Source: Posidoniimonas corsicana | GTDB lineage: Bacteria; Planctomycetota; Planctomycetia; Pirellulales; Lacipirellulaceae | Reading direction: 5' to 3' | Length of the DNA: 64,000 nt | Assembly (NCBI RefSeq): GCF_007859765.1 | Contig: NZ_SIHJ01000001.1 | Location: 310,767 to 374,766, forward strand | Shown: positions 2,303 through 50,800 of the stretch, piece after piece | Position numbering within the stretch: position 1 is the stretch's first letter | Layout: each line of letters begins with the position of its first letter | Program-made: the position numbers and the translations under genes | The notes under the pieces: model-generated | Databases searched by the model: none | What the model saw: the letters and a program-made list of their open reading frames with translations, nothing else | Told to the model about the DNA's origin: nothing

Positions 2303-2503
2303 CTACTGCGTCGGCCGTTCCCGCCTCAACGCCAACCGCCTCCGCACCCGCTCGGCCTTCTCCCGCAGCTGCTCGTCCGTCAGCCACTCGTCGTCCATCG
2401 TGACGATCAGCACCTCCTGGTGGTTCCCACGCACCGTCGCGAACGGCACGCCGATCTGGTACACCGCCGGGAACTTCAGCGTAATCTCTCGGTGCCTTGG
2501 CAT
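2303..2503 (-). CDS. Small hypothetical protein, 66 aa, last gene of the leftward element cluster
   Basis: This is a short, highly charged protein. The N-terminal part looks like beta strands (ITLKFPAVYQIGVPFATVRG) and the C-terminal part is a basic helix (DEQLREKAERVRRRLALRRER). A strong Shine-Dalgarno sequence, AGGAGG, lies a few bases before the ATG, which supports translation. It follows the 133-aa membrane protein gene after about 95 bases and is probably the distal gene of the same transcript. No family is recognised. Small proteins of this style are common in phage-like elements, but a specific role cannot be given. Confidence 0.55.
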   Translation of the reverse strand: MPRHREITLKFPAVYQIGVPFATVRGNHQEVLIVTMDDEWLTDEQLREKAERVRRRLALRRERPTQ

Positions 2504-2598
2504 GGGCCTCCTGCCTTCCGGTTGGTCCTAACGATTAGAGCTCGTTGGCGCCGGACGCCGCCCCGGCTTCCGGCTCGCGGTCCGCCCGCGTCAGTCCG

Positions 2599-3000
2599 CT
2601 ACAACAGCAACGACAACAACGCCAGCACGACGGCGAACGACGCGCCGTAGAGGGCGATCGCCATCGCCTCGCTGCGGCACGCACAGTGGTTGGCGTCGCC
2701 GTGGCCGCAGTTGCAGTACGGCAGGTGACGACCGTGCTCTGGCTCGCGATTGACGTCGCGAAGCGTCGGTTGCTCCGATGGCTGAGCTTGCTCGCCCTGC
2801 TTGATCATCGAACCCACCTTCACCGCGTCGTACCAGCTGAATGCCAGGCTGGGGTCCCCCGCGTACCGCGCTAGCAGCCGCCGCACCTGGTCCCGCTGCC
2901 CGGCCCGGAACACAAACCGGTACCGCTCGCCGCCCCGCAGGTAGTCAATCGTCAGGACGCCGGTTGGCTCGACGCCCGTACGGTTCAGCCCCCCGCTCAT
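2599..3000 (-). CDS. Small C-terminally anchored protein with a Cys/His cluster, 133 aa
   Basis: The ATG at 3000 overlaps the stop of the preceding gene as ATGA, indicating translational coupling; a longer open frame upstream is only antisense-like GC-rich sequence. The first half (residues 1-70) resembles a small beta-rich domain (GVLTIDYLRGGERYRFVFRAG, then an Arg-rich helix). Around residues 100-115 there is a cluster, YCNCGHGDANHCACRSE, with four Cys and two His that could bind metal. The last ~20 residues (IALYGASFAVVLALLSLLL) form one hydrophobic segment ending at the C-terminus, as in a tail-anchored protein. Function is unknown; a membrane-located metal-binding protein is an inference. 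Confidence 0.6.
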   Translation of the reverse strand: MSGGLNRTGVEPTGVLTIDYLRGGERYRFVFRAGQRDQVRRLLARYAGDPSLAFSWYDAVKVGSMIKQGEQAQPSEQPTLRDVNREPEHGRHLPYCNCGHGDANHCACRSEAMAIALYGASFAVVLALLSLLL

Positions 3001-3887
3001 GCCGCCCCTCCCGCGACGCACAGCCGCTCGCTCAGGTCGACCGATCGGGAGCGACGCCGCAACGCATCGGGAACCGACGTCTGCGCCAGCAGACGGTGCA
3101 GGTCCAGCCGCAGGAACTCCCGAGTGTTGTTGACCAGCACACCCCGCCAGAACCTCCAGGGCGTCTCGGGGCGGCCGTGGCGGACCGCCTCCAGGCTCGA
3201 CTCCAGCCAGTGCTCGCCGAGCCGCTCGACGCTCAGCACGGCGATCTTGGCGGCGTACTCCCAGTCGTCCGTGTTGGGGCGGGGCTTCCCGACAGCGGCC
3301 AGGATCGCGTTGCCCCGCCGCCTGACCTCCTCCAGGCCGCCCGGCGACAGCCGGCGGCCGAAACCAAAGCAAGCTTCTTCGGTCGCGCTCGACCCGTCTC
3401 GACTCGAAGAGCTAAGCTTAGAGTTCTCCTCTATGGCCGTGCCAAACTGGCACTCAACCTCGGCATCTTGGCACTCACCTGGGGCGTTTTGGCACTCACC
3501 CCCGCACGACGGCGCCGCCACGCCCAGACCAGCGAACGCCCCCCAGTCGATCCGCCAGGAGTTGGAAGCCCGCCCACCGTTGGCCCCCTTCCGGTTGCGG
3601 TTCTCGACCTCCAGCACGCCCAGCGCCTGGGCGTCCTCGCTGGCCCGGAACAGTGTCCGCCGCGAGTAGCGGCACTCGTCTGCTAGGCGGTCGCTCGACG
3701 CCCAGCAGCCGGTCCCCTGGTTGAGGCGGTGCACGGCCGACAACAACGCCACGACGTTGTTCCAACGCCGCTGCGACAGGCCGCTGCGGCGGTAGGGGAC
3801 CGACTCCAGCAGACGGAACCGCTCGGCGTACTCGACGTCCAGCGGCAGCGGCTGCTGACCGGCGGCGGGTTTTCTTCGGTAGGCCAT
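2997..3887 (-). CDS. Replication-initiator-like winged-helix protein, 296 aa
   Basis: Residues ~40-115 read as a winged-helix DNA-binding domain (SQRRWNNVVALLSAVHRL, then CWASSDRLADECRYSRRTLFRA, then LGVLEVENR and a wing), of the kind found at the N-terminus of phage and plasmid replication initiators. The middle (about 130-175) is Cys/Glu and Ser-rich and low in order, including a heptad-like ECQNAPG, ECQDAEV, ECQFGTA that reflects 21-bp DNA repeats in the gene. The C-terminus contains a conserved-looking stretch, PWRFWRGVLVNNTREFL. Layout (DNA-binding domain, repeats inside the gene, C-terminal domain) recalls lambda O, but no sequence homology to O is claimed. The start at 3887 lies 10 bases after the 51-aa gene; the end overlaps the next gene by ATGA. 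Confidence 0.6.
   Translation of the reverse strand: MAYRRKPAAGQQPLPLDVEYAERFRLLESVPYRRSGLSQRRWNNVVALLSAVHRLNQGTGCWASSDRLADECRYSRRTLFRASEDAQALGVLEVENRNRKGANGGRASNSWRIDWGAFAGLGVAAPSCGGECQNAPGECQDAEVECQFGTAIEENSKLSSSSRDGSSATEEACFGFGRRLSPGGLEEVRRRGNAILAAVGKPRPNTDDWEYAAKIAVLSVERLGEHWLESSLEAVRHGRPETPWRFWRGVLVNNTREFLRLDLHRLLAQTSVPDALRRRSRSVDLSERLCVAGGAA
3439..3510. repeat. Iteron-like 21-bp direct repeats inside the initiator-like gene
   Basis: TGGCACTCA occurs three times at exactly 21-bp spacing: 3448-3456, 3469-3477 and 3490-3498. The first copy is also half of a perfect inverted repeat, GTGCCA-AAC-TGGCAC (3439-3453). The flank at about 3400-3437 is unusually AT-rich for this window. Twenty-one bp equals two helical turns and seven codons, so the repeats are in frame with the protein. 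Together these are the parts of a small replication origin, but origin activity is an inference. Confidence 0.5.
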
Positions 3888-3897
3888 CGTGGTTGCT

Positions 3898-4053
3898 CTA
3901 GGCGTCTGGCGCGGAATAGTCTTCGTCGTCGCAGCGGCAGCCGTACAGCGGCGCCAGGCAGCAGGGGCACGGCTCGTCGAGCCAGCACTTGCAGTCGTCC
4001 AGGTACTCGCCGCAGTCTGGGCAGAACCGGTCGTCGTCGGGACGTTTTCCCAT
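3898..4053 (-). CDS. Cys-rich mini-protein, 51 aa
   Basis: A short frame encodes MGKRPDDDRFCPDCGEYLDD followed by CKCWLDEPCPCCLAPLYGCR and an acidic tail. It holds eight cysteines arranged as CPDC, CKC, CPCC and CRC pairs, which looks like a zinc-ribbon or rubredoxin-like knuckle protein. The start ATG overlaps the stop of the preceding gene by one base (TGATG), a strong sign of translational coupling, and the stop lies 10 bases before the initiator-like gene. The overlap and ordered cysteine spacing make it a real gene despite its size. Function is unknown; such proteins in mobile elements often act as small regulators or scaffolds, which is only a guess here. Confidence 0.6.
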   Translation of the reverse strand: MGKRPDDDRFCPDCGEYLDDCKCWLDEPCPCCLAPLYGCRCDDEDYSAPDA

Positions 4054-4253
4054 CACCACAGCTCTTGGCAGTCTTCCAGGTCGTCCTTGCTGACCGGCGT
4101 CTTCTTGATCGCGAACTCCAGCGGCTCGCCGGGCGGCATCTGCTGGAACTGCTCCATCAGCTTCTCACGCAGCGTGTAGGCGGCGATCGCAGAGTCGACC
4201 CCCAGCAGGGCGGTCGAACCGTCCGGGAAGCGGATCAGGTGGGCTACAGGCAT
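4053..4253 (-). CDS. Small hypothetical protein, 66 aa
   Basis: This is a compact protein that begins MPVAHLIRFPDGSTALLGVD, suggesting a beta hairpin, followed by a helix (AAYTLREKLMEQFQQM) and a charged tail ending ELW. GGAG is placed near the usual Shine-Dalgarno distance before the ATG. The gene begins 17 bases after the HD-phosphohydrolase stop, and its own stop overlaps the start of the Cys-rich gene as TGATG. It is therefore one unit with its neighbours in the element. No family is recognised. Confidence 0.55.
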   Translation of the reverse strand: MPVAHLIRFPDGSTALLGVDSAIAAYTLREKLMEQFQQMPPGEPLEFAIKKTPVSKDDLEDCQELW

Positions 4254-4270
4254 CGGAGTCTCCGGGGTTG

Positions 4271-4864
4271 TCAGTACGCGCCGTCGCCAAACGGTCGCGG
4301 GTTGTCGGTCAGTCGGTTCATGACGCTCGGGAGCTCGCCCGGCTCATCGCCGACGATCTCCTCGTACCGCCGCAAGAAGTTGCCCGCCGCCCGGGCGGGC
4401 AACTCGTAGGAGATCTGCACCCGTGGGTAGGGCTTCACATCCCGCAGCGACTCCCACGCCGGCGCCTTCGGCTGCAGCAGGTCGCGCTCGGTCACCAGCA
4501 GCCGGTTGTCGACTTCGCGGACCTCGACGGGCTTGGGCCACGGGAAGTCGAACCGCTCGGCGATCGCCAGCATCATCCGAGCCTCCAACTCGACGTAGCC
4601 CGGCAGCCTCTGCTTGAGCGGCCGCACCAGATCGCCCAGGTACGCCTCGCTGGCGTCGTGCAGCAGCCCACACAACGCGAGCTCCGGCGGGACCAACCGC
4701 GAGACGATCACCGAATGCTGGGCCACGCTGTAGGGCTCGTGCGTGTGGCCTGCAAACCGGTTCACCCGCGACAGCCCGCGGGCGATGTCTTCGATGGTGA
4801 ACTGCTCCGGCCGCGGGTGCAGCAGGTCCACGCGTCCCCCTTCGTAGAGTCCGATCCAGGTCAT
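4271..4864 (-). CDS. HD-domain phosphohydrolase, YfbR-like 5'-nucleotidase family, 197 aa
   Basis: The protein shows the HD signature expected of metal-dependent phosphohydrolases acting on (deoxy)nucleotides: a first His in RFAGHTHEPYSVAQHSVIV, the HD pair in LALCGLLHDASEAYLGDL, and a later Asp in VREVDNRLL. Length and order match YfbR-like dNMP 5'-nucleotidases and related phage HD enzymes. The ATG overlaps the stop of the CsrA-dNMP kinase gene (ATGA), so the two are translationally coupled. A kinase and a nucleotidase made together suggest control of the deoxynucleotide pool during replication of the element. The family is well supported; the exact substrate is inferred. Confidence 0.8.
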   Translation of the reverse strand: MTWIGLYEGGRVDLLHPRPEQFTIEDIARGLSRVNRFAGHTHEPYSVAQHSVIVSRLVPPELALCGLLHDASEAYLGDLVRPLKQRLPGYVELEARMMLAIAERFDFPWPKPVEVREVDNRLLVTERDLLQPKAPAWESLRDVKPYPRVQISYELPARAAGNFLRRYEEIVGDEPGELPSVMNRLTDNPRPFGDGAY

Positions 4865-5613
4865 GCCGCGCCCTCCGCCGCCTGGTCCGCTTCCCAGAAG
4901 GTCTGCACGCAGTCCAGCACCCGGCGGCAGAGCTGCTCGGGGGAGCCGTCGTTCAGCACCTCGCCGTCGGTCGGCAGGCCGCCGGTCTGGTCGCTGACGT
5001 GACCGTTGACCGGTCCCACGCCGGGTCGCTCGATCCGGATCAGCCTCCCGCCGAAATCGCCCCGCAGCAGCGCGATCTCGTTGGCGAAGCGGACGTCGGT
5101 GATCACTACCGGCCCGCGGCGCCGGGTCTCATTGAGCCGCCGCCGCATCAGGTCGACCCACACGTCCGCACCGCAGACATCGCGGACCACGTCGGTCCCG
5201 AGCCCCTGCAGCAGCCGCCGCACGTCCGCGTGCCGCTTCGCGTGGTCCCACCCGAACGTGCCGACGATCCGCGCCAGCTTCGCGTGCGCCCCGTTGTCCA
5301 GCCGCACGACCGGGTCGAGCCGCAGCAGCGACTCACGCAGCGGGTCGGCGAACGCCAGCCGCCGCCAGCCCTGCTTGACCAGCTCGGCCGCGGCGGCGTC
5401 CTTGCCAGCGCCGGCGTAGCCGATCAGGCCCAAGAGCGGCGTATCCCGCCGGGCCCGCCGGATCGCGTTGCCGACCTCGCCGCGGTGCACGGGAACCTCC
5501 GGCGGCGCGTCGACCCCGATCCGGACCTTGTCGCCGCGGATGTCGACCACGGTCGCCCTGACGTTGTGGCCGACCTCAATGGTCTCGTTGATCTTCCGTG
5601 AAAGAACCAGCAT
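4861..5613 (-). CDS. CsrA domain fused to deoxynucleoside-monophosphate kinase, 250 aa
   Basis: Residues 1-53 are a complete CsrA (carbon storage regulator) domain: MLVLSRK at the start, VTV/RGDKVRIGVDAP strands, and PVHRGEV with the RNA-contacting Arg at position 44; Leu4 is also present. Without a stop or shift it continues into a P-loop kinase: GYAGAGKD at 65-72 (a GxxGxGKD Walker A), FADPLRESL, and VVITDVRFANEI near residue 175, as in phage dNMP kinases of the T4 gene 1 kind. I chose the ATG at 5613 because it starts the CsrA fold exactly and has AGGAG ten bases upstream; 16 extra codons upstream are unlikely. CsrA normally binds GGA in mRNA leaders as a dimer and controls translation; the kinase would make dNDPs. 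Fusion of the two is unusual. Confidence 0.85.
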   Translation of the reverse strand: MLVLSRKINETIEVGHNVRATVVDIRGDKVRIGVDAPPEVPVHRGEVGNAIRRARRDTPLLGLIGYAGAGKDAAAAELVKQGWRRLAFADPLRESLLRLDPVVRLDNGAHAKLARIVGTFGWDHAKRHADVRRLLQGLGTDVVRDVCGADVWVDLMRRRLNETRRRGPVVITDVRFANEIALLRGDFGGRLIRIERPGVGPVNGHVSDQTGGLPTDGEVLNDGSPEQLCRRVLDCVQTFWEADQAAEGAA

Positions 5614-5660
5614 GGACCTTGCTCCTGTGGAAATAAAACAAACCGCGTCGAACCACGCCA

Positions 5661-5981
5661 CTACGGGCTGGGCTCGCTCTCGAGCCAGTAGATGTTCTCG
5701 CCGCGCGACGTGCCCCGGCGGTGCTTGATCACGTAGCCAATCTTGCCTAGCTCTTCGATCCGGGCGCTGTAGCGGAGGCCGATCTTGGAGAGCCGATGGT
5801 TGGGCTGCTCACCCTGCCGCAGCAGCTCGACGATCTCGCGCTGCTGCTTGCCGAGCCGCTTGCGATCGGCGGCCGGCGCCCGGCAGGGCGCGAGCGGCGC
5901 CTCTTCGCGTTCCGGCGTCCGCTGGGGCGGATCGAACAGCGGCAGCCGCTCGCCGCCGTCGGTCGCGGGGTAGTCGGACAT
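5661..5981 (-). CDS. Small winged-helix-like protein, first gene of the element cluster, 106 aa
   Basis: After a Pro/Glu-rich N-terminal 40 residues, the C-terminal ~60 residues read as a winged helix: a basic helix (KRLGKQQREIVELLRQG), a recognition-like helix (NHRLSKIGLRYSARIEELGKIG) and a wing (YVIKHRRGTSRGENIYWLE). This suggests a DNA-binding regulator. I place the start at ATG 5981 (MSDYPATDG), although a longer frame runs to 6059 through GC-rich sequence and no clear Shine-Dalgarno separates the options. It is the promoter-proximal gene of the leftward cluster, right after the nested inverted repeats, so autoregulation of the cluster is plausible. Confidence 0.55.
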   Translation of the reverse strand: MSDYPATDGGERLPLFDPPQRTPEREEAPLAPCRAPAADRKRLGKQQREIVELLRQGEQPNHRLSKIGLRYSARIEELGKIGYVIKHRRGTSRGENIYWLESEPSP

Positions 5982-6066
5982 GAATAAGAGCGGGGCCCGC
6001 GCTCGTCCGTGAGAACCACGTCGTGCGTTTCGCGGGCTTGCCGCCTCCTGGTAGGTCACGCCCAGC

Positions 6067-6171
6067 GTGAGCAGCTCCTACTGAGAGGCTCGGCCGAAGC
6101 CGAGCGGCAGTGTCACGTGCGGCCTTAGATAGGAGCTGCTCACGTCAGGCGTGAGTGATCATGCACGTGAC
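6067..6171. promoter_or_regulatory. Nested inverted repeats at the head of the element cluster
   Basis: GTGAGCAGCTCCTA (6067-6080) is matched perfectly by TAGGAGCTGCTCAC (6130-6143). Inside lies a second hairpin, GCTCGGC-CGAA-GCCGAGC (6088-6105). A third pair, GTCACGTGC (6112-6120) and GCACGTGAC (6163-6171), interlocks with the outer one. The structure sits about 85 bases upstream of the first leftward gene and 370 bases from the tRNA half. It could be an operator, a structured RNA leader, or a DNA site for replication or recombination. The pairing is seen directly; the role is not known. Confidence 0.5.
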
Positions 6172-6542
6172 GAAAACAAACCTAAGGGGCAAAAAATGCT
6201 AGATGCCCTGTCTGGGTGGGACATGCGTTCCAAGCTGTCGATTGCGAAAGCCCTGGACTCGCGAGATAAGTTGCGACACCGAAACGCAGCGTCAGCGCAA
6301 CAGAACGCACCAATTCGGCCATTGTTGCCCGAAGAGAATCTCAAAGAAAATCCGACGACACAAATCGCTGGCGGGGCAGGGCGATCAGATCCATGGCCCA
6401 CAAGAACGCAGCCGCGTCGAGCGGCGTCCCACCCAAATCTCACCCAACCGGCTCTTCACGCACCGCCCGATGTGAAGGGTGGCCGTGCGAACCTCGCAGA
6501 ACGCGAGAAAAAACAACGCCAGCGCACCGCACGACACGCGAA
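6172..6542. other. Element end between the inverted repeats and the tRNA half; no gene recognised
   Basis: A 136-codon frame starting at a GTG (6151-6561) is open but its product (for example NAASAQQNAPIRPLLPE and a run of Arg/Lys/Thr) has no domain, no good start signal, and runs into the tRNA half. A shorter ATG frame at 6393 encodes MAHKNAAASSGVPPKSHP and stops at 6554. This is where an integrase gene would be expected; I cannot recognise one, and the stretch may be its decayed remains. Confidence 0.35.
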
Positions 6543-9234: not shown

Positions 9235-12200
9235 ATGTTACAGCTGCCTGGTAAACAACAATTACTCGCCGCTCTGGTCGCTATCGTGGCGACGGGGACC
9301 GTGCCTGCCTTTTCTGAAGAAGTCGAGAGATTCTCAGCAGAACCGGTTCAACTTGAGGATCGCTTTGAGGTCGATACGAGGGAAGACTACAAGATCGAGG
9401 GCGACGCGGAGTGGTCGCGTCGGAAGCTCTCACTCAGCCCTAACGCGACTGTGGCGGTTGTAAAAACCATCGAAGACGAACTCTTGTTTGAACTCGACCT
9501 GTTGCCGGGCGAAGTACGCGTGGGAGAGGCTTCCGCGTCGCGTGTTACCTTCGTTAAGTCCAACGGCTGGCAGATCATCGTACTGATTGGCCGCGCATAC
9601 CACCGAGGTCGGCTTTACCGCCAGGTCGTCGTATCGCAGATCGAAGGCAGCGATCAATCTGCTGAGGCTCCCGTGGTTGGCGAGCTGAGGCGCCTCCCGG
9701 CGTTCAGGATCCCCGGCGAGGCGGAGTCCTGGTCGATCCAGTGCCGCAACGGGCTCATTGAGGTCGCCTGCAACGGGCACAAGCTTGGCAGCGCCCACTC
9801 GGGCTCCGGCGGTGCGTGGGTCCATGCGATTGCACTGACGCAGCTCGGCAAAGAGTCTGCCGTGACGCGCCTGCGGCTTTCAGGCCGAACAGTGGGCTAC
9901 ACCCCGCGACAGCGAGAACTCTACAACCAGACAATCGCGCTGGGTCGGCGAGCAGCTGAAGCAGCAGCACGGGGCGAGCTGGAAGAGGCGACCAAATTGG
10001 AACGCCGCGCCATGGGCATGATCCAACTGAGTCTTGGGGAAGCTGACTTGGGGGTGGCCGTTGCGTACCGAAATATGGGTGGGCGGCTCATGGAGGCGGG
10101 CGACTACCTCGGCGCCAAGGAGGCCTACAAGGCTGCTCACGCCATATACTCTCAGCCGCTCGGCGCCGGCCACCCGGACACTCTGATTTGCGAGATCCAC
10201 ACAGCGATTGCAACCGCAAATATGGGTTACTTGGAGGAAGGCGCCGCGGACGTGAGGGATGCCCTCGGCAGGTACTTTCGTGTCGCTGGCGCTACCTCGC
10301 GAAGTTCGACAAACCTAATGAGTTGGTTGGCGGGGGTAGCGAAACGGCAAGCAGGGAAGGCGGCCGAGCGGGGCGATTACGTCGCGGCTCTGAACTACTG
10401 GCGAGAGGTTGTTGACTTAGAGGCCAAGAGCCGTGGGGCGGACCACCTGCACACGAAGCGCGCGCAGCTTGAGGTCGACTTCTTCACTCGGCTCCTCAGT
10501 GAAGTAGGGACGCAACGCGATCGGATGATCGAGTATGTCCGCACGGACACTCTCGTCGAAGAGCTGTTTGCACAGGGGGCAATGGAAGATTACTACAAGG
10601 CACAGGCAAAGCTTCTCCAGTTGAGCCGCGAGGTCAACGGCGATCGTCACCCGTTGACGGCGGACGCACTTGTAGCACGGGCGATCATTCACTCCAACAA
10701 GGGGCGCTTTGACCTTGGCCTCGCGATGCTGAGGGAAGGGGCAGAGATCTTCCGAGAGCATTTCGGCGAAGATAGCGTGATCTACCTCTGCAATTTAGGG
10801 AGAATCGGATCGCAGTTGAGCATGCACGGACGATACGCCGAAGCGACGCCACTGTTGGAGCAAGCCATCCGGTCGCTAGCGGAGCATGGCTTCGCGCGGT
10901 CAGTCGAGTACGCTGAGACGAAACTGGAGTTGGGGCGACACCTAATACGCATGGGCAAGAATCAAGAAGCGGCCGCGCACTTGGTTGAGTCGTTACAGAC
11001 GTACCGCGTGATCGGTGAGCAGACCAATGGCGGCGTGCTTATCGCCTGCGAACGGCTGGCTGACATACACCGGTCCGAACACGACCTCGAAGCCGCGGAA
11101 CGCTATTTGGAGCACCAGCGTAGCATTGTCCTTTCACTCTACGGGACGGACCACGAGAAGTATGTCAGTGTCTTGTCCTCCGAAGCATTCCACTGCTACC
11201 TGAGGGGCCAGTTCGACACTGCGCTTAAGAAGTACGAACAGGCTGGCCGGCTGGCCGAGAAGTTCTTCGGTAAGAACTCGCGGTCGTACGAGGCAGTTAT
11301 CGACGGGATGCTCCGTGTCAACCTCTGGCTCCGCGACATGCCGGCGGTCGTGCGGCACTTTGAGGAGCGGCTCGAGTGGGAGCTCCACCGACGGGAAACG
11401 CTGTTTAGCGTCTACACCGAAGGGGAGCAGCTCGGGCGGGCGCAAGCCGATTTGCGGTCGCTCGACGCACTCTTGATCCTTGCCCTCGAAGGTCACCTCG
11501 ACCCCCGCCGGGCCTACAGCCACGCGCTCGCCTTCAAGGGGGCAGTCGCCGCGCGACAGAGGGGAGATCGGATCTCCGCCAAGGACCCAGAATCTCGCCG
11601 GATGCGGGAAGAGCTGCAAGAGATCGAACTGCGGCTTAGCGAGCTCGACGCGACGGGCCCTGAGCTCCAGGAAGCGGAAGACCGGTCAGCGTTGCTACGA
11701 CGCCTCCAAGAACTTGAATCGAACCTCGCGTCTCACAACTCGGCCTACCACGCAGCGGTCCAACGCACCAGCGTCGCCGACCTGCAGGCAGTCCTTCCAG
11801 ACGGGACTGTCCTGGTTGACTACTTTGAGTATATCAAGCCCAATGACTACTTCGATCTTCTCTTCGGGTTGCGACCAAAGCTCGGGTTGGTCGCGTTTGT
11901 ACTCAGCAACGAAGGCGAAGTGCGTCTCATCGATCTCAAGGGATTGACTGAGGTTGCTGATTCCATGTCTGCTTGGCGGAACGCAATGGCTCTAGAACCG
12001 TACGTCGGACTGAACGAGGCCGGTGAGAGCTCGGCCCAGGTTACCGACCAGCGCGGAGCGGACGTGTACCGAGCAATCTGGCACCCGCTGGTCGAGCACG
12101 TCGGCGACGCCAAGACCGTCGTCATTTCGCCAAGCACCAACCTGTCCGCCTGCCCATTTCCCGCGCTTCCTGTCGATTCTCGCTCTGCTTACCTAATCGA

Positions 12201-13056
12201 AACGCACGCAATTGCTACCGTTGCGAGCCCCCGCCTCATACCGGAACTGCTTGCGGATCGTCCAGCCAAGAAAGACCCGCGGCTCGTCGTGGTGGGCGAC
12301 ATTGACTATGGACTAGCAGCCGCCGCGCCGTCCGACGGTGGGCCCCCAGGTTCGCAGCTTCACTTTGAAAAGTTGATCGACGCAGAAGAAGCGCTCCGGC
12401 CGATTCAGCGCGCGTTCACGAAACTCTATCCGACGGGTGAATCTCATCGGCTCACAAAGAGCCTGGCGAGCGAGGGTGAGATCCGTCGCCACGCCCCAGG
12501 TGTTGACTTTCTGCACCTACACACCCATGGGTTTTGCGTGCTGGTAGACACAGGCTCGGGCGCAACTCCGGTTGTCGCAGAGGGCCCGATGACGCCTTCA
12601 ACGGTAGTGCTGGCCGGAGTAGCGCTAGCCCACGCCAATGACAGCGAAGCTGCCGAAACCCAAGCCGACAACGGCATCCTGACAACGCAGGAGATTCAAG
12701 AGCTTGATCTCGGCGCCGCCGACTTAGTGACGTTATCGGCATGTCAAACCGCCTTAGGCGAGATAGCGCCGGGTGAGGGTATGCTTGGCGCTCAGCGCGC
12801 GCTCCATATCGCGGGGGCGCGTTCTTCGCTCACATCACTTTGGTCCGTGGAGGATGCAAGCACTCGATTGCTGATGTCGGAGTTCTACACCCGGCTGTGG
12901 GGAGATGGCGTGCCGAAGGCTGAGGCGTTGCAACAGGCCATGATCAACCTGCTTAGGGGTGGGGCCGTCGGTGGCGATCTTGTTGATGAGCGAACAAATG
13001 GTCGCATGCCACCCGCGCTGTGGGCTGGCTTCGTGTTGCATGGCGATTGGCGCTGA
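9235..13056 (+). CDS. Exported TPR-CHAT protein, caspase-like, 1273 aa
   Basis: Residues 1-27 form a signal peptide (LLAALVAIVATGTVPAFSEE). Residues ~35-215 are a beta-rich region, perhaps a lectin-like fold (RLPAFRIPGEAESWSIQCRN). From ~225 to ~700 there are tetratricopeptide-type helices with family-typical wording (AVAYRNMGGRLMEAGDYLGA, PLLEQAIRSLAEHG, ALKKYEQAGRLAEKFFG). After a coiled segment (~780-860) comes a CHAT domain (~870-1270) with the caspase-like dyad: His1098 in HLHTHG and Cys1170 in LSACQTALGE, followed by GAQRALHIAGARSSLTSLWSV. CHAT domains are cysteine peptidases of the caspase/separase clan. Cytoplasmic CHAT proteins serve in defence; this one appears exported, so its target should be periplasmic or on the surface. 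It stands alone, with no obvious partner. Confidence 0.85.
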   Translation: MLQLPGKQQLLAALVAIVATGTVPAFSEEVERFSAEPVQLEDRFEVDTREDYKIEGDAEWSRRKLSLSPNATVAVVKTIEDELLFELDLLPGEVRVGEASASRVTFVKSNGWQIIVLIGRAYHRGRLYRQVVVSQIEGSDQSAEAPVVGELRRLPAFRIPGEAESWSIQCRNGLIEVACNGHKLGSAHSGSGGAWVHAIALTQLGKESAVTRLRLSGRTVGYTPRQRELYNQTIALGRRAAEAAARGELEEATKLERRAMGMIQLSLGEADLGVAVAYRNMGGRLMEAGDYLGAKEAYKAAHAIYSQPLGAGHPDTLICEIHTAIATANMGYLEEGAADVRDALGRYFRVAGATSRSSTNLMSWLAGVAKRQAGKAAERGDYVAALNYWREVVDLEAKSRGADHLHTKRAQLEVDFFTRLLSEVGTQRDRMIEYVRTDTLVEELFAQGAMEDYYKAQAKLLQLSREVNGDRHPLTADALVARAIIHSNKGRFDLGLAMLREGAEIFREHFGEDSVIYLCNLGRIGSQLSMHGRYAEATPLLEQAIRSLAEHGFARSVEYAETKLELGRHLIRMGKNQEAAAHLVESLQTYRVIGEQTNGGVLIACERLADIHRSEHDLEAAERYLEHQRSIVLSLYGTDHEKYVSVLSSEAFHCYLRGQFDTALKKYEQAGRLAEKFFGKNSRSYEAVIDGMLRVNLWLRDMPAVVRHFEERLEWELHRRETLFSVYTEGEQLGRAQADLRSLDALLILALEGHLDPRRAYSHALAFKGAVAARQRGDRISAKDPESRRMREELQEIELRLSELDATGPELQEAEDRSALLRRLQELESNLASHNSAYHAAVQRTSVADLQAVLPDGTVLVDYFEYIKPNDYFDLLFGLRPKLGLVAFVLSNEGEVRLIDLKGLTEVADSMSAWRNAMALEPYVGLNEAGESSAQVTDQRGADVYRAIWHPLVEHVGDAKTVVISPSTNLSACPFPALPVDSRSAYLIETHAIATVASPRLIPELLADRPAKKDPRLVVVGDIDYGLAAAAPSDGGPPGSQLHFEKLIDAEEALRPIQRAFTKLYPTGESHRLTKSLASEGEIRRHAPGVDFLHLHTHGFCVLVDTGSGATPVVAEGPMTPSTVVLAGVALAHANDSEAAETQADNGILTTQEIQELDLGAADLVTLSACQTALGEIAPGEGMLGAQRALHIAGARSSLTSLWSVEDASTRLLMSEFYTRLWGDGVPKAEALQQAMINLLRGGAVGGDLVDERTNGRMPPALWAGFVLHGDWR

Positions 13057-15992: not shown

Positions 15993-16017
15993 GTCCCTTT
16001 CCCGTGGCGCTCGGCGG

Positions 16018-19000
16018 TTAGTCGGCAAAGTTCAGCGCGATGTCGCCCAGCTCAATACGTTCTCCGGGTTCAACCTTGAACTCGGCCGCGGCCTTCGGCT
16101 GTCCGTCCACAAAGTTAATAATGCGGTAGAGTGCGCCCGGGATTAACGCCGGCAGCGTGATGCGGCCTTGGTCGTCCGTCTTGGGGCCAGGCCAGTAGTT
16201 CTGGCGGTCGATGTTGGCAACGGAGTCGGAGTCGGCCAGCGTGTCTCCCCTGCGAGCCGCCTCAAAGTCGTATCGCGGAGCACCGGGGGACACGACCAGG
16301 TGCGGCGTGAGCTCGACGCCTTCGCGCGGCTCGCCGTGCTGATCCACGACCCGAGCGGACGCCTCGCCGCACGGCCGAAGAACCACGGTTGCATCTCCGC
16401 CGCCTTCCACCAACACGGTGGCGCCAAGCCGTCGCTTGGGGTCGAGCACGTGGACCGGCATCTCCTCGCCTGCCTTCAGGCCGGAGACTTCGAACCGACC
16501 TCCGAGGGTCGGCAGCACTTGTCCGCGCCAATTCAGTGAGCGCGGCATGCGGTTGTGCTGGGAGACGACCAACGCGTCGTCAATGCTCAGGCCTTGCTCG
16601 TCGACGATGCGGCCGGTGACCGGGGCGCAGCGCTCGAGCTCGACCGACACGTCGAGCGGCTCGGCGTTCGGTTGCGGGTCGATCCGCACGGCCGCCTGCA
16701 AGTAGTTGCGCCGCCCGCCGGTCTCGTTTCTGCTGATCTCACGCTCGGTCACCGTCTGTGTGACGAACCGCCCGCTCTCTTCCTGAATCAACAGCCTGCC
16801 CGGTCCGGGCAGCACAGCGATAGCAAAGCGGCCCTCCTCGTCGGATACCTGCGTTGCCTGCCAGCCTGTAAGTATGTCGTCTGACGTGTTGGGGTTGTTG
16901 GAAGACTCCGGCGCGTACTGCACCACGGCGCCCTCGACCGGTGCGCCCGATCCGGCCTCGGTTACGACGCCCCGGATAAGCACCCCACGGGGCAGCGTCA
17001 TATCGACGCGTCGCTCGGCGTCCCCCTCATGCCAACTTAGCGCCTCTGAGAGCGGCGTTTGGCGCACTAGGTAGGGCACACCGCCGGGCGGGAAGGCGTT
17101 GACGCCGAAGCGCACCCCCTGGCTGGGGGAGATGCGGTACTCGCCCCGTTCGTTGGCGACGCCTTCGACCGAGTACATCGATCCTCCCATCTCCTGCTGG
17201 CTCGCCCAGATAGAGACTCGCGCACGCGGGGCGGGCTCGCCGGTATCCTCGTACGTGATGGTCCCGACGAACACCTGCGCCGGCGAGAGCGGCAGAACGA
17301 GCTCTTCGCCAAATTGGCTGTTGCGGGTGAACGCTCGATAGGTTGCGTCGCGTTCGCCACGCTGCTCGGGCCTGCCGGTGTTGAGCGCGAGGTGCTGCCT
17401 GCCGAAGCGGTCGTCGGGCGTCACAATGGCAATGACGCCACAGTCCGCCGGCACTCCAAGTAAACGGAATCGGCCGTCGGCGTCCGACACCGCTCCCTGC
17501 AGCCACGCGGCCGGCGGGCTGTCTTCGCGGTAGCCCGCGCCGTTGCGCATTGGCTGTTGGTCCTGCGTACGCTCCACCACCGACTGAACCACCAGCTTCA
17601 CGCCGCTGGCCGGTTGCCCCTCGATGTCCACGAGCTGTCCAACGATCGGCTGTTCCGCGACCAGCTGAATGTCAAACTTCTCAGCTTCGTCGAGGTTCAA
17701 CTCCCGCCAAGCAATCCCCGCGCCGTCGGCCCGCACGAGTAGATTCGCGTAGCCGTGTGTCTTGGACGTGACATCGTCAGGGACCGTCAGGTTGTACTTC
17801 CCGTCAACGCCAACGGTTCCTTGCCCCAACACCTCGCCGCGCGTCTGCTGCGTGCCAGCAATCCGCAGAGCGACGATCGCCACGTGGGCACCCGACGCCG
17901 GGCTGCCATTGGGGAGCGTCACGGCGCCGGTAAACGTCTTGCCCGCAGCCGGCTGCGCCGCGGGGATGGGGGGCATAGACTCGGAGGCGTTGGGCGTTGA
18001 CGCTGGCTCCGCGGCTGTGTTTTGCTTCACGACCTCACCCTCATCCCGCAGCCTCACATCGCCGAGGTCTTTCGACTCGCCCGGTTCGACCGTGATGACT
18101 GTGTCCAGCGGACCGGGCACTGTTGGCGCCCGGCGGCGGGTCATCATGCTGTCACGGTCGAACGCCATGAGTCGGTACTCCACCCCGGGCGCGAGGCCTG
18201 AGATCTCGAACCGGCCATCGGCGTCGGTCTCGTACCTTGCGCTCGAAGAGTGAGCGACGTTGTGCGGCAGCGGAGGTGTGTCGGGCTTCTGGGCGAGGTC
18301 CTCGAACGTGACGATTGCTGGGGTGCTGGGAACGAGCTGGCAGTTGGGCAGCGGGGCGCCGTCCTTGTCCACCAAGCGTCCGCTGGCCCTTCCCGCCGGC
18401 TGCAGCTCGATCACCAAGTCTTCCGGCAGCACTCCTTGGACGACCGCGTGCCCCGCCAGCCGCCGTTCTTGGTGGACAAAGTAAACATGCCGCGGTTGCT
18501 TGGGGTCATACCCGACGAGCTCAAACTTGTCGCCGATCGAGTGGTCCCACGAGCCGGTGAATCCGGCCAGCTGGCCGGTATGGTAGTAGTCGGTAACCGG
18601 CTCTCCCCCGGGACCCACGACGCGGCCGATGGCCGTTGTTCCGCGGTCGAGCTGCAGGTTGAGTTCGACCCGCTCGACTTCTTCCCCGGGGTCAATCTCT
18701 GCGACAAGGTGCGTGTTGCCCGGCATCAAGTACGACGGATTTGTCTTGATCATCCGCTCTGCGGGTGCGAACGAACCATCGCTCTTAAGGATTCGATTGG
18801 CCCGTGGGTAGATCTGGTGGTTATCGGCGTTGAAGGTGATATAGCCTGGTCCGGGTAGGGCCGCGATGCGGAATCGCCCTTCGCTGTCCGATCGCAGCCG
18901 ATCGCGTTCGTCGACCCCAAGCGAGCGTGCCGCCTGGTGGGCTGGGCTGTCGGCGTCGACGTAGTACGCCAGGCGGCCGGGCAGGCCTTCGCCCGTCTGC

Positions 19001-27389: not shown

Positions 27390-30300
27390 TCAGCCACATT
27401 GTTGCTGGTGCGAAGTAGCGGAACGAGTCGAACCCATGATCCACGCAATTACAGACGCAGCGAGCACCGCTGAGAGGGGTTCAGGAACCGCATTACTCGC
27501 GCCGCTTGCATCGCCAGCGTATCCGAAATGCGATCTCCAAACGGCGTAGTCCTTCGTGTCGACAAACCCATCCCCGTTGGCGTCCGCGGAGGTGTACTGT
27601 GGGACGGCGTTTCCTCTGACATCCCGCCAGACCGTGTAGTCGGCGGCATCGATCTGCCCATCTCCGTTAAAGTCACCGGTCATCAGGAACTCGGAAAGCA
27701 CGACGGCGCCTTCTACGTAGTTGTACGAAACGATTACAGAGCCCTCTCCTCCTTCGGTCCCGATGCGATCACCAGCATCGGCGTTTTCGAAGCTGCCGCT
27801 AAGTGACTCGGCAGTGAGTATGGTGAAAGAACCATCTGGCGGCGGCAGGAACAGGGCGCCGTCGGACTCAAGCAGCGAAACGCTGAGACTGCCCCCGAGC
27901 GTTGCCGCTCCGGCCGCGAGTTCATCGTGTTCTATCCCTGCAGAAAGCCCGCCGAGTTCAACCGCCAGCGTCGATCCGGTTTGGAACTCAATTTCACCAA
28001 GCGTCAGGCTGCCGACGCTGGCGCCAGGAGCGACGATGCCGCCAGCCTCAACGACCACGGCGGCGTCGACCGCACCGTTTCCGGAAAGCGAACCACCACC
28101 AACCACGGCATAGTTCTCACCTCCAGTGTGTGTTCCATTAACCTGAAGGACACCCGCCTGGACGGTTGTCGATCCCGAGTAAGTGTTGTGCCCAGACAGG
28201 GCCTGTGTTCCACTGCCGGACTTCACCAGGCTGACCGCTCCCTGGATGCTTCCTGTAAACGAAGCCAACCCAGTCTGGCTATCGACAATTAAGGAGCTCG
28301 GCTCGCTGGCGTTCGGGTTTGACGCCAGAATGCTCCCCGGACCGAAGATCTGGCCAGTCCTCGTCGTCAGGCTGTTGTCGTCGGTCCGCGCGTTGATATC
28401 CATGGCTCCGTACAAAAACACGACGCCCGGGGTGTTGACGGCTTTGTCCCCGATCGCCGAAAGAACCGCACCGGAGCTCACGGTCAGGTTTCCGTTGACG
28501 ACGTTCGACCGAGCCACGACGGCGCCTTCGGCCACAGTAAACGAGCCAGTAAATGTGCTCGCCTTCTCGATACTGAGCGTGCCAGGCCCGCGCTTGGTGA
28601 AGTTGCCGGCCCCCTGAATTCCGCCAATCAGAAGCTGATGGCCGGGCACTCCTACGCCGATCGACGCGTTCCCATCCAGGAAGATTGTGCTCTCGTCACT
28701 GACACTGGAGCTCCCAAACCGTGTGCCATTGCTAGCCTGACCATCGGAGTACAGTGCGCCGCGGCCGTCTACTCCGTGGCCGCTAATGGTGAGCTTCTCG
28801 TTCGCAACCCGGATGCCGGGCTGGATCTCCAGGCTGCCCCCGGCCTCTACAATCGATGCGTTGGCTTCAAGCGATCCGTCGGCGGCGGCGCCATTGTTGC
28901 CAAGCCCAAGAGCGTCGGTCAGAACGACGTGAGTGCCACTGAGCACAACTGAGACGCCGTCGTAGGAGTTTTTCTTGCCGTTCGTAATCACCGGCGCACG
29001 CGAGCTGCCCGTGTTGTTTGTGGCTAGGTTGCCTAGCACCGCCGTCTGGTTGGTGTTGTTAACGAATACGGAGTCGATGAAGTCACCCGGGTCGCCGTCT
29101 TCGGGTCCGCTTGGGTGGGAGGTGTCCCGCCAGTTGTTGAAGAAGGTTTGACCAATTCGGACGAGCGAGTCGGCGGGGAGCGCGCCCGCAGGAAGGTCAC
29201 TGTCGATCGTCACATTGAACCGCTGGCCGTTGAGGTAGGCGGCGGCCCAGTCCACCCCGACCGGCGCCTCTCCCACCAGCTCCAGCTCGATTGTCGTGTC
29301 CCGGGCGTGGTTCTGGGGGATGTGTATTGCGGGGCCGTTCACGATGTCAGCCTTCGCGTTTGTAACCGTGGTGAGCGAACCGAGGCCGAAGGCCGTCTCC
29401 GTGCCGTAGGCCTCGACGTTGTTAAGCGTAATGCCCAGGCCGTTGTCCAGGTCCGTGAAGCCCAAGGCGGTAGCGAAGCCGGTGCGCATGTTGGTTACCA
29501 CCACGTTCTCTGCCGTGAATCCAACCGTGGGTACGCCGTTGATCGATCCATACAATCGCACCCCGCCCTCGTTGGCGGAGATCATGATGTCGTCGGGGAT
29601 CTCATTCCCGTGAGAGGTGAACCCGTACTCCTGGTACTTGGGGTGGTTGATCACGTTGCTGGAGGGGACCAGCTCGCCGGTGACCGTGCTGTTGGTGAGC
29701 GTGGTGTTCCTGGACTTCTGGACAAAAAAGCCGTGACCGTAGGTCTTGACATCCAGTTGCATGTCGTCAACGACCGCGTTGGTAGCTTCAAACACGTTGA
29801 ACGCCGAGGTCTTGTTGTGGCCCACCCAGGGTAGGCCAACCACCCCCTCCGGCTCGCCCGGGACCTGCCCGGGCGGCTCACCCTGGGGAAACTGCCGGGC
29901 GCCCTTTCCAAACGCGTCGCCCAGGCCGTAGGGCGACGAACCGCGAGAGAGCACGTTCGCGCCCTGCACTCTGTTGTCCACGCCGGTCAGTTGCACGTAG
30001 ACCGCCGCCCAATCGGCGTAGCGCTGCGCGCCAGGGTCCGTGTCCAGATCCAAGTCGTACCCGGTGAGGCTGAGGTCGTTTACGGTGTTGCCGGCGCCGC
30101 TGATCTTCACCACCCGCACGCCGCTGTCGTGCCCAAGGGCTCGACCAAACCCGTCGAGCTTGCGGGTGTCGAGCTTGAGGTTGGCGCCGGTCAGATTGTA
30201 CGTGTTGTTGTTGCCCCCTAGCTCCAGGAAGATTGGCTGAGAACTCGTGGGATTGGCGATATGATCGCCGTTGATCCAGTAGTCGCCTGGCGCAAGGGTG

Positions 30301-30440
30301 ATGGTCGCGTTGTTGACAGTCGTCGACAGCGACCGTAGCGTCGCAAGATTGTTGGCAAAGTACTGCCCTCTGGCAGGCCTGCTACAGACCGATGCGCCGA
30401 CGGCCACGCATACTACCGCGAACTTGAATCCAAGCGTCAT
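27390..30440 (-). CDS. Secreted beta-helix/PATR-repeat protein with dockerin-like motifs and PEP-CTERM tail, 1016 aa
   Basis: ATG 30440 has GGAAGG eight bases upstream and starts a signal peptide (MTLGFKFAVVCVAVGASVCS). Residues ~20-560 look like a right-handed beta-helix rich in Asn and NT/ITN turns (TTLTNSTVTGELV, NVVVTNMRTGFATALG). Then come passenger-type repeats (GPGTLSIEKASTFTGSFTVAEGAV; GSGTQALSGHNTYSGSTT). Near the end are two dockerin-like calcium loops (FNGDGQIDAADYTVWRD, ANGDGFVDTKDYAVWRS) and a VPEP motif with a hydrophobic helix, the exosortase sorting signal. It is a surface or exported protein; binding to or cleavage of polysaccharide is possible but no catalytic motif is recognised. 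A close paralogue is at 47851-50925 on the other strand. Confidence 0.8.
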   Translation of the reverse strand: MTLGFKFAVVCVAVGASVCSRPARGQYFANNLATLRSLSTTVNNATITLAPGDYWINGDHIANPTSSQPIFLELGGNNNTYNLTGANLKLDTRKLDGFGRALGHDSGVRVVKISGAGNTVNDLSLTGYDLDLDTDPGAQRYADWAAVYVQLTGVDNRVQGANVLSRGSSPYGLGDAFGKGARQFPQGEPPGQVPGEPEGVVGLPWVGHNKTSAFNVFEATNAVVDDMQLDVKTYGHGFFVQKSRNTTLTNSTVTGELVPSSNVINHPKYQEYGFTSHGNEIPDDIMISANEGGVRLYGSINGVPTVGFTAENVVVTNMRTGFATALGFTDLDNGLGITLNNVEAYGTETAFGLGSLTTVTNAKADIVNGPAIHIPQNHARDTTIELELVGEAPVGVDWAAAYLNGQRFNVTIDSDLPAGALPADSLVRIGQTFFNNWRDTSHPSGPEDGDPGDFIDSVFVNNTNQTAVLGNLATNNTGSSRAPVITNGKKNSYDGVSVVLSGTHVVLTDALGLGNNGAAADGSLEANASIVEAGGSLEIQPGIRVANEKLTISGHGVDGRGALYSDGQASNGTRFGSSSVSDESTIFLDGNASIGVGVPGHQLLIGGIQGAGNFTKRGPGTLSIEKASTFTGSFTVAEGAVVARSNVVNGNLTVSSGAVLSAIGDKAVNTPGVVFLYGAMDINARTDDNSLTTRTGQIFGPGSILASNPNASEPSSLIVDSQTGLASFTGSIQGAVSLVKSGSGTQALSGHNTYSGSTTVQAGVLQVNGTHTGGENYAVVGGGSLSGNGAVDAAVVVEAGGIVAPGASVGSLTLGEIEFQTGSTLAVELGGLSAGIEHDELAAGAATLGGSLSVSLLESDGALFLPPPDGSFTILTAESLSGSFENADAGDRIGTEGGEGSVIVSYNYVEGAVVLSEFLMTGDFNGDGQIDAADYTVWRDVRGNAVPQYTSADANGDGFVDTKDYAVWRSHFGYAGDASGASNAVPEPLSAVLAASVIAWIMGSTRSATSHQQQCG

Positions 30441-30491
30441 GAGATTTGCCTTCCACTGTTCCGCCCGCAATGAGTCGGCGCCCTTGCACTT

Positions 30492-47850: not shown

Positions 47851-50800
47851 ATGACCCAGTCCCGCAGAAGAATCACCGTATCACGCTCAGACGTGGCGGC
47901 GGCGTACTCGATAGTTGGCTGCCCATTGCTACGCCTGTGCTTGCTGATCACCCTCGTTGCGTCCTGCTCCCAGGCGTCGGCGCAGCTAGTTGCAAACAGT
48001 CTTGCGGAGCTTCGGTCCTACGGAACTTCGGTCGACAACACGACTGTTGTGCTTAGCGGCGCCGATGGCGACCCCCACCCAGAAACCGGCGTCGTGACGC
48101 CGGGCCACTACTGGATCAATGGCGATCACATTGCCAACCCTACCAGCTCCATGCCGATTTTCATGGAGCTGGGCGGCTCGGGCAATACGTATGACCTGTC
48201 CGGCGCTACGATCAACCTAGACACCCGTAAGCTCGACGGCTTTGGGCGGAGCCTTGGGCACGACAGCGGCGTCGACGTCGTCCGGATCACCGGCTCGGGG
48301 AATACGGTGCGGGGCCTGACACTGATCGGGCAGGATATCGCCCTGGACACCGACCCGGACGCCCAACGCTTTGCCGACTGGGCGACGCAGTACGTTGAGC
48401 TGTCCGGCGCCAACAACACGGTTGACGGCGCGCATGTGGTCTCGCGAGGCTCTCGCACCGACGCCTATGGTCTCGGGGACGCGTTCGGTAAAGGCGCCTC
48501 CCAGGGCGTCAGCCCGTACATCCTTCACCGCAAGGCGTCGGCGTTCCGGGTGGGGGAAGCGACCAATGCGGTCATCAACGACATGCACCTCGAGGCGTAC
48601 GCGTTCGGGCACGGGTTCTTCGTGCAGAACTCGACCAACACAACCCTTACCAATAGCACGGTCACCGGCGAGTTGTTCTCATCACAGGGCGTTGTCGAAC
48701 ATCCGCTCTACCAGCAGCATGGCCACACCTGGTGGGGAGAGCCGATCCCGGACGACATCATGATCTCCGGCGCTGAGGGCGGGGTGCGAGTGTACGGCGG
48801 CGCATCGGGCTTGACCGTCGACAACGTAGTGGTGACGAACATGCGTACAGGGTTTGCCACTGTCCACGACGGAGGCGCCGTTAACATCAGCAACTCCTAC
48901 GCGTATGGAACCCAGTCCGGGTTTGACGTCGGCGACAACACTACCATCACCAACAGCGGAGGAGACATCGCCAATGGGCCGCTGCTTGTCTTCTACGGCA
49001 GCGGGGGGAACAACTCGATCGAGCTTGAGCTGGTGGGGGGCGATCCGGTCGGCGTGGACTGGTCGCCCGCCTTTGTTAACGGCGTCGCCGATGTCTCGAT
49101 CACCAGCAGCTTGCCGGCGGGCGCGCTTCCGGAGCAGTCGGTCATCCGCCTTGGCCAGAGCTACTACCAGAACTGGCGGAACTTCGACTACACAACCGAC
49201 GGTCCAGAAAGCGGCGATCCAACTCCCTACACGAACTCGACGTTCCACAACAATACCCACCAGATCCTGGTGCTGGGGGAAAACGCGGTCAACAACACCG
49301 GCAGTTCCGTGGGGATGGTGATCACCAACGGAAAGGAGAACTACTATGATGGCGTCTCGCTGGTACCCGCCGGCAAACGCACGCTGGTGTCGCACGCCGC
49401 TGGGCTGGGCAACAACGGCGCCGCGGCCGAAGGCACGCTCGACAGCAACGCGTCGGTAGTGCAACTTGGTGGCACGCTGGAGCTGCAGCCGGGCGTCAAG
49501 ATCCTGAACGAGAAGCTGACCATCAGCGGTGACGGGGTTGATGGCCAGGGAGCGTTGTACTCTGACGGACGCGCCGACAGCGGCACCCGCTTCGGAAGCT
49601 CCAGTCGAGTCGACGAAAGCGTTATCGTCCTAGACGGAAATGCGTCGATCGGCGTAGGCGTGGCGGGCAACCAGCTGCTGGTCGGCACTATCCAGGGCAC
49701 GGGAAATCTCACCAAACGTGGTCCCGGCAAGCTCAGCATCGAGCGGCCCAGCACGCTTGCCGGGAACCTGACCATCGCCGAGGGACAGGTCACCGCTCGA
49801 TCGGGCGTGGTGAGGAATGGTCTGACGGTAGCCGCTGGCGCGTCGATCGACTCGATCGGAGCCGATGCGATCAATACAGGCAGCGCTGTGCTTCTATACG
49901 GCCGTATGGACGTCAACGCACGGTCGGACGCCAACCAACTCTCCGCTCGGGTGGGGCAGCTGTTCGGCTCCGGCGTGATCGAGGCCACCAACCCAACCGC
50001 GGATAATGCTGGCACGCTGACAGTCGAAACGTCTTCGGGGCAAGGATACTTCATCGGCGAGATCCAGGGCGGACTTAGCCTGGTAAAATCCGGCGCGGGA
50101 GAGCAGGTGCTGGCGGGCGTCAACACCTACACCGGCAGCACCACCATCAGCAACGGGCTGCTGCGGGTAGACGGAACGCACACGGGCGGAGCCCACTACG
50201 CGGTGCTGAGCGGAGGCGTACTCGGCGGCGTCGGTGAAATCGGATCGGATGTTGTGGTACAGGCAGGTGGAACGCTGGCGCCCGGCTCCAGCGCCGGGGA
50301 ACTAAGAACCCGGGATGTCGAGTTCCATCGCGGCGCCGTTCTCGCCATTGAGGTGAGCGGCGCCACCGCGGGCACAGACTACGACCTACTCGCAGCCGAC
50401 GAGATTCTGCTCGGCGGTCAGCTTGCGGTTACCTTGATCGGCGACGGCTTCACACCCGCATTCGACGATGTCTTCACCGTGGTCTCAGCTGCTTCGCTGT
50501 CTGGTGCATTCGACAACGTTGCTGACGGCAGTCGACTCAACACAACGGACGGCGAAGGCTCCTTCATAGTTAGCTACAGCAGTGAACTGGGCGTGGTCAC
50601 GCTAAACGGTTTCCTGTTTGCTGGCCTGGCAGGCGACTTTAATGCCGACGGCGTAGTAGACGCCGCCGACTACTCTGTCTGGCGGGACAACCTTGGCGCC
50701 CTCGATGAAGACTCACTTAGTGGGAACGGCAGCAATTCCGGTGGCGTGGACGCCGCTGACTATGAGCTGTGGCGTAGCAACTTTGGTGCGATGGCTCTCG

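Follow-up and report, generated by a model that had tools for sequence, protein, structure and literature searches.

A CsrA domain fused in frame to a T4-type deoxynucleoside monophosphate kinase in a small island of Posidoniimonas corsicana

CsrA is among the most studied of the bacterial RNA-binding regulators. It is normally a free dimer, built by strand exchange, that binds GGA motifs in mRNA leaders, and its roles in phages and plasmids are poorly understood. T4-type deoxynucleoside monophosphate (dNMP) kinases convert dNMPs to dNDPs, and the kinase of T4 itself is a dimer. Published work describes csrA as a free gene in phages and plasmids (PMC7366521, PMC8450108) and in a Vibrio phage (PMC12038007). 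Here, we describe a gene in which a complete CsrA domain runs directly into a kinase of the T4 type, located in a stretch of 64,000 nucleotides of the Posidoniimonas corsicana genome (contig NZ_SIHJ01000001.1, positions 310,767 to 374,766), hereafter called the window. An earlier note, made from the DNA alone, had pointed to the gene and knew of no described example. The literature agrees as far as it was searched: among the matches listed, abstract beginnings and passages contained no report of a CsrA-kinase fusion, and no paper was listed for the two protein families in combination. Judged by its domain profiles, the fusion is a new combination of known domain families, found in one genome.

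One reading frame with two domains

The fusion gene lies on the minus strand at window positions 4861 to 5613, begins with an ATG at 5613, ends with a stop codon at 4863-4861, and encodes 250 amino acids. The earlier note, which gave no strand, had proposed an in-frame fusion, and the frame indeed contains neither a stop nor a shift between the two parts; the plus-strand translation of the same interval is a different frame and not the fusion protein. The CsrA domain comprises residues 1-57 (positions 5443 to 5613, minus strand) and matches Pfam CsrA (PF02599) over residues 1-52 with 71.4 bits (cut-off, 27) and the CsrA-like PHROGs family phrog_9500 over residues 1-57 (2.1e-16). The kinase domain comprises residues 58-250 (positions 4864 to 5442, minus strand) and matches the dNMP kinase family phrog_139 over residues 58-237 (1.7e-41) and Pfam DNMK (PF21448) over residues 128-228 with 48.7 bits (cut-off, 27.1). 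Every motif that had been claimed is in place, namely, the MLVLSRK start with Leu4, PVHRGEV with Arg44, the P-loop GYAGAGKD at residues 65-72, and VVITDVRFANEI. Leu4 and Arg44, which we take to be critical for RNA binding by CsrA, are found in both copies of the gene.

The amino-terminal part resembles the CsrA/RsmA family in that the domain is complete and has the conserved start, Leu4, and the VHR-E motif. Moreover, its score is like that of free CsrA, ranking fourth among the nine CsrA places of the genome, and it falls slightly under the cut-offs of the NCBIfam equivalogs for free CsrA (67.1 versus 73 and 66.9 versus 70.1). The known members of the family are free and about 60 to 70 residues long, whereas the CsrA domain here is extended, across hardly any linker, by some 190 residues of enzyme. 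Thus, the product is a CsrA-domain fusion protein and not a canonical CsrA. The carboxy-terminal part resembles the T4 gp1 kinase (1dek; PF21448; phrog_139) in family profile, P-loop and fold, and an alignment shows 16 invariant columns common to it and 23 other kinases. Several relatives, among them those at loci L044, L050, L060 and L217, begin a few residues ahead of the P-loop strand, whereas the fused kinase has CsrA in front. The kinases of Streptomyces phages (Lannister, R4, Caliburn and others) are about 40 to 47% identical to the fused kinase; that of Lannister, a few genes from the DNA polymerase, is annotated as standalone with no CsrA annotated beside it.

Translation likely begins at the ATG. 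The sequence AGGAG (positions 5622 to 5626, minus strand) stands 8 nucleotides upstream of it, as well placed as had been claimed, and ACAGGAGCA around the AGGAG is identical in both copies while the flanks differ. The frame is open upstream as far as a GTG at 5661, which was considered as a start; the ATG is preferred for its fitting AGGAG spacing and the CsrA-like N terminus that it gives.

A monomer model built from an alignment that combined the fusion, 23 kinases and 6 CsrA proteins reached a mean pLDDT of 89.2 and a pTM of 0.79, compared with a pLDDT of 41.6 for a single-sequence fold. The model has CsrA strands at residues 11-15, 18-26 and 29-35 and a helix at 44-56, followed after about 3 residues by the kinase strand 60-64. 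Residues 1-10 are modeled less well (block mean pLDDT, 67), presumably as expected for an N-terminal strand that pairs with the partner subunit in CsrA. Foldseek returned 24 PDB matches at an E value of 0.001 or below, the best of which was T4 dNMP kinase (1dek_A, 1.6e-7; TM 0.50 over the two-domain model), and CsrA chains 5z38, 5dmb, 1vpz and 2bti followed at 1.1e-3 and weaker. VIA-align also placed 1dek first (Z 16.1, root mean square deviation 3.0 Å, 174 aligned residues, 25% identity; next match, 14.5) and listed kinases, with CsrA folds appearing in the Foldseek list alone. In addition, the kinase family profile matched 1dek with an E value of 9.6e-25.

A second copy and a small, probably mobile island

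The P. corsicana genome (6.77 Mb in 13 contigs) has two dNMP kinase places, and both are fused to CsrA. The second copy, at C2:567848-568633 on another contig (also L154:12848-13633), is 93% identical to the window copy in amino acid sequence and intact in frame. Sequencing or assembly error is ruled out because a diverged second copy elsewhere in the genome keeps the frame, and codons 55-60 at the junction are identical in the two, which bears out the claim of the earlier note that the fusion is no annotation artifact. We conclude that the CsrA-dNMP kinase fusion is a genuine, intact in-frame gene. Near the C terminus of its kinase, the second copy has a tandem in-frame repeat of six residues (NDGEVL type), which adds 12 residues absent from the window copy.

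Comparison of the two copies over the whole gene gave a dN/dS of 0.24 (dS 0.147, dN 0.035). The ratio was 0.196 for the kinase part and 0.72 for the CsrA part, the latter resting on 4 nonsynonymous and 2 synonymous changes, and the difference in selection between the parts was nonsignificant (Fisher P = 0.21). At least the kinase part is under constraint. Differences within the CsrA domain fall at residues 9, 10, 11 and 29, outside stretches 2-7 and 40-47, which we take to be the RNA-contacting ones, a placement that chance would give with P = 0.29. The low synonymous divergence of the CsrA part was likewise not significant (P = 0.08) against a patchy background, and the identical linker codons 55-60 lie in a generally little-diverged stretch.

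The fusion belongs to an island at window positions 2322 to 6188 (minus strand) that nucleotide comparison aligns with L154:9914-14208 on contig C2 at 87 to 89% identity. In the order of the minus strand, the island encodes a small open reading frame (ORF) beginning MSDYP (5661 to 5981), which weakly matches PHROGs families without assigned function; the fusion; a deoxyribonucleoside 5'-monophosphate phosphatase (4271 to 4864; phrog_318, 1.4e-61), the start of which overlaps the fusion stop as ATGA; a 66-residue ORF without assigned function that is conserved in the second copy (4053 to 4253); a cysteine-rich ORF of 53 residues with no convincing family match (3898 to 4059); and a replication-initiation-like (O-like) protein (2997 to 3887) recognized by weak matches to phrog_270 (3e-6) and phrog_391 (4.8e-6). 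Between the copies, the four island genes compared besides the fusion had dN/dS values of 0.19 to 0.25 and no internal stops. By its neighbors, the fusion sits in a cassette for nucleotide metabolism and replication.

The C2 copy has a tyrosine integrase directly upstream (phrog_1, 2.4e-38) and, further on, excisionase-like helix-turn-helix (HTH) ORFs and a second replication-initiation-like gene. In a search of the whole genome, the integrase of this type was complete only at C2, and therefore the window island is without an integrase of that kind, none being found near it. Moreover, of 12 ORF products encoded in and beside the window island, none matched a PHROGs family for virion proteins or integrases. 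For the C2 region (4 + 4 proteins scanned against PHROGs), the integrase was recovered, and the sole virion-category match was that of an excisionase-like HTH protein to small-terminase family phrog_57, a weak one (0.012). By the integrase search and the PHROGs scan, the window island does not unite an integrase and virion genes in one unit, as an intact temperate phage does. Thus, of the "phage-like element" in the earlier note, the mobile-element context stands, whereas the island is about 4 kb long, encodes no recognized virion family, and at the window lacks an integrase of its homolog's kind. The small island is probably mobile, and in being carried by a mobile element, its CsrA would resemble those reported from phages and plasmids (PMC7366521, PMC8450108). 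Neither the window nor L154 yielded a tRNA gene, and four proteins compared with PADLOC matched no defense system.

Several features near the two islands were observed in passing. Adjoining the C2 island, L154:16609-17529 and 15996-16364 appear to form a second related module with a replication-initiation-like gene, a winged-helix-like MSDYP ORF and an excisionase-like HTH. A few kilobases from the window island, positions 9235-13056 encode a 1,273-residue protein that by eye is rich in TPRs and has a CHAT-like C-terminal region, with no PADLOC match. Large ORFs at 13 to 64 kb, named from reading them, resemble ordinary host chromosome, with sulfatases and PEP-CTERM-type proteins. Two similar PEP-CTERM-type proteins of about 1,025 residues with autotransporter-like repeats (27390-30470 and 47851-50925) are, by eye, apparent paralogs.

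Distribution and origin of the fusion

The earlier note had proposed looking for the same domain order in planctomycete genomes and phages. Both own-genome copies were recovered, and no fusion was found elsewhere in the sequences searched. A whole-protein search matched all of 196 related genomes; among the matches listed (to an E value of about 9e-15), only the two places in P. corsicana matched both domains, and the others were CsrA matches, a few of which extended at low identity up to residue 128, several of them through stop codons. The kinase profile, with at most 8 candidates scored per genome and with genomes recurring between sets, matched 39 of 392 genomes of the phylum at an E value of 1e-3 or below (16 at 1e-6), 58 of 396 genomes of the order (5 at 1e-6), and 4 of 397 genomes of the class at 1e-6; the weaker matches in the phylum and order were mainly short P-loop matches. 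The phylum and order searches supplied 59 loci, which were inspected with about 1.5 kb of flank, and CsrA was present solely in the own-genome locus (L158). Conversely, among loci L001 to L040 from P. corsicana and its relatives, a kinase was present solely in the own-genome places.

Phages, plasmids and viral contigs gave the same picture. Whole-protein matches were found in 369 of 50,697 phage records; the 60 of these that were listed included none with full coverage of both domains (best listed coverage, 85%, by a Streptomyces phage dNMP kinase), and 82 phage records matched the CsrA part alone. Among 72,556 plasmid records, 45 matched and none covered more than 80% of the query. For viral contigs, the DNA fetched for 80 whole-protein loci and 53 kinase-part loci (overlapping sets) contained no CsrA, and no kinase stood beside CsrA in the best 80 of 176 viral CsrA loci. 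Across 157 loci, several of which are one contig entered twice, 119 had a kinase, 42 had CsrA and 6 had both, the last being the two own-genome places; likewise, no fusion was present in L217 to L222 or in L311. Two DNA patterns spanning the CsrA end to the P-loop hit 1 and 4 stretches of viral DNA, in which neither domain was present; as a control, the first pattern recovers both own copies. Finally, exact 8-residue patterns, an insensitive method, were run against 84,980 genomes, one for each species, and found 6 relatives, none of them fused.

A few sequences deserve mention beside these counts. A structure match in BFVD, A0A8S5VT95 (245 residues, 233 alignment columns), could conceivably be a further fusion. 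In a viral contig, L254:3001-3606, CsrA runs in frame into about 150 residues with no Pfam match, possibly another CsrA fusion, to a domain outside Pfam. The CsrA of L275 has a tail of 95 residues.

The nearest kinase is encoded in L217 (JAUILW010000005.1), a metagenome-assembled genome labeled Gammaproteobacteria, a label that may be wrong. It is a free protein of 190 residues (MSESTRAPIVGLIGYAGAGKD...) that is 53% identical to the fusion over residues 48-236, and in a tree of 30 kinases, it joined the two fused copies (100/99), which were sisters of one another (100/98). A free csrA starts about 930 nucleotides past the kinase stop, with an acetyltransferase-like ORF between, and the surroundings encode an excisionase-like protein, an integrase (3.9e-33), an Erf-like annealing protein (8.7e-30), a weakly ParB-like protein and a helicase. 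The helicase ORF (L217:11530-14181, 883 residues) seems by eye to contain an intein-like insertion (CLDDQTEVLTEAG...). Thus, L217 and P. corsicana both hold the kinase and csrA in one element-like stretch, whereas in L217 they are separate genes with the kinase first.

Because the nearest kinase stands alone and a free csrA lies in the same contig, the fusion probably arose by the merging of two separate genes of an L217-like element. The arrangement in L217 is a plausible precursor state, and as its order is kinase first, more than a simple deletion would have been needed to produce the fusion. The earlier note would have doubted a fusion whose parts are always separate genes in homologs. The parts are unfused in every homolog inspected outside this genome, the nearest included, and fused in both copies within it, so that the doubt applies by half.

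What the fused protein may do

How a CsrA domain and a nucleotide-making enzyme would work in one chain can be proposed from what is known of the two families. We favor, with a probability of about one half, a bifunctional protein encoded by a small integrative element, in which a CsrA-type dimer would bind RNA and bear two dNMP kinases. The N-terminal CsrA domains would form a strand-swapped dimer on GGA-containing mRNA leaders, and the T4-type kinase at the C-terminal helix of each CsrA subunit would serve the replication of the element by converting dNMPs to dNDPs. With two genes of one element joined, a single early cistron would provide both RNA regulation and nucleotide supply and would be translationally coupled to the dNMP phosphatase. 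Host mRNAs and the operon of the element itself would be the likely RNA targets. We infer the dimerization, the RNA binding, the kinase activity, the targets and the side-by-side working of the two activities. The gene could regulate itself through the ACAGGAG ribosome site, but neither a conserved GGA hairpin nor folding beyond that of shuffled sequences (z 0.4 to 1.1) was seen in the leader RNA of the two copies. Passages of two papers concern CsrA-family proteins with attached partners: one study constructed a strain with RsmA-3xFLAG, tagged at the C terminus, and also reports RIP-seq, for which the strain presumably was used (PMC8450108), and adenylate cyclase two-hybrid fusions of RsmE and RsmQ still self-associate (PMC9928087).

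Alternatively, the CsrA part may no longer regulate RNA and may instead serve a phage-type kinase as a dimerization or solubility module or as an efficient translation-start segment. Selection is demonstrable for the kinase part alone, and since both CsrA and the T4 kinase are dimers, a dimerizing tag could be tolerated. Against it stand residues 2-7 and 40-47, presumably the RNA contacts, which are intact with no difference between the copies, and a score like that of free CsrA; we regard this alternative as doubtful. It is unlikely that the gene is a neutral by-product, in which csrA and a kinase were joined by rearrangement and the window copy is a decaying remnant without function. The restriction of the fusion to one genome among the sequences searched, the separate genes of the nearest relative, and a window island without the C2-type integrase are all consistent with such an accident, but both copies have kept a frame of at least 250 codons despite their divergence (dS 0.15, dN 0.035), and the four neighboring genes show the same low ratios without internal stops.

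RNA might also control the enzyme directly, in that RNA or a sequestering RNA on the CsrA dimer would alter the activity or location of the kinase and match dNTP supply to the translational state. Helix 44-56 ends only about 3 residues before kinase strand 60-64, so that a shift in one domain could reach the other; both copies have the same linker, although that identity falls in a little-diverged stretch, and we consider direct control improbable. Were it so, the protein would be an enzyme with its own CsrA sensor, the first of its kind, in which RNA occupancy switches or localizes a dNMP kinase and ties the DNA precursor supply of the element to the translation state of mRNA, a prospect that we likewise hold to be a long shot. 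Least probable is that the gene makes two products, the full fusion and a kinase-only form from an internal start, for while both copies have in-frame GTG codon 42, with GGAGG 5 nucleotides before it, and TTG codon 61, and while two standalone csrA genes compared have GTG42 without a preceding GGAGG, GTG42 is ordinary CsrA coding sequence, the GGAGG comes from a common Glu-Val codon pair, and a start at TTG61 would cut kinase strand 60-64.

The weight of the finding is limited because the fusion was found in one genome. Set beside its closest relative, which keeps the two as separate genes of one element, the fusion suggests a link between nucleotide supply and the CsrA proteins that such elements carry. 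The fusion, for which we prefer the bifunctional reading, also offers a simple protein with which to ask whether RNA may control an enzyme through CsrA.
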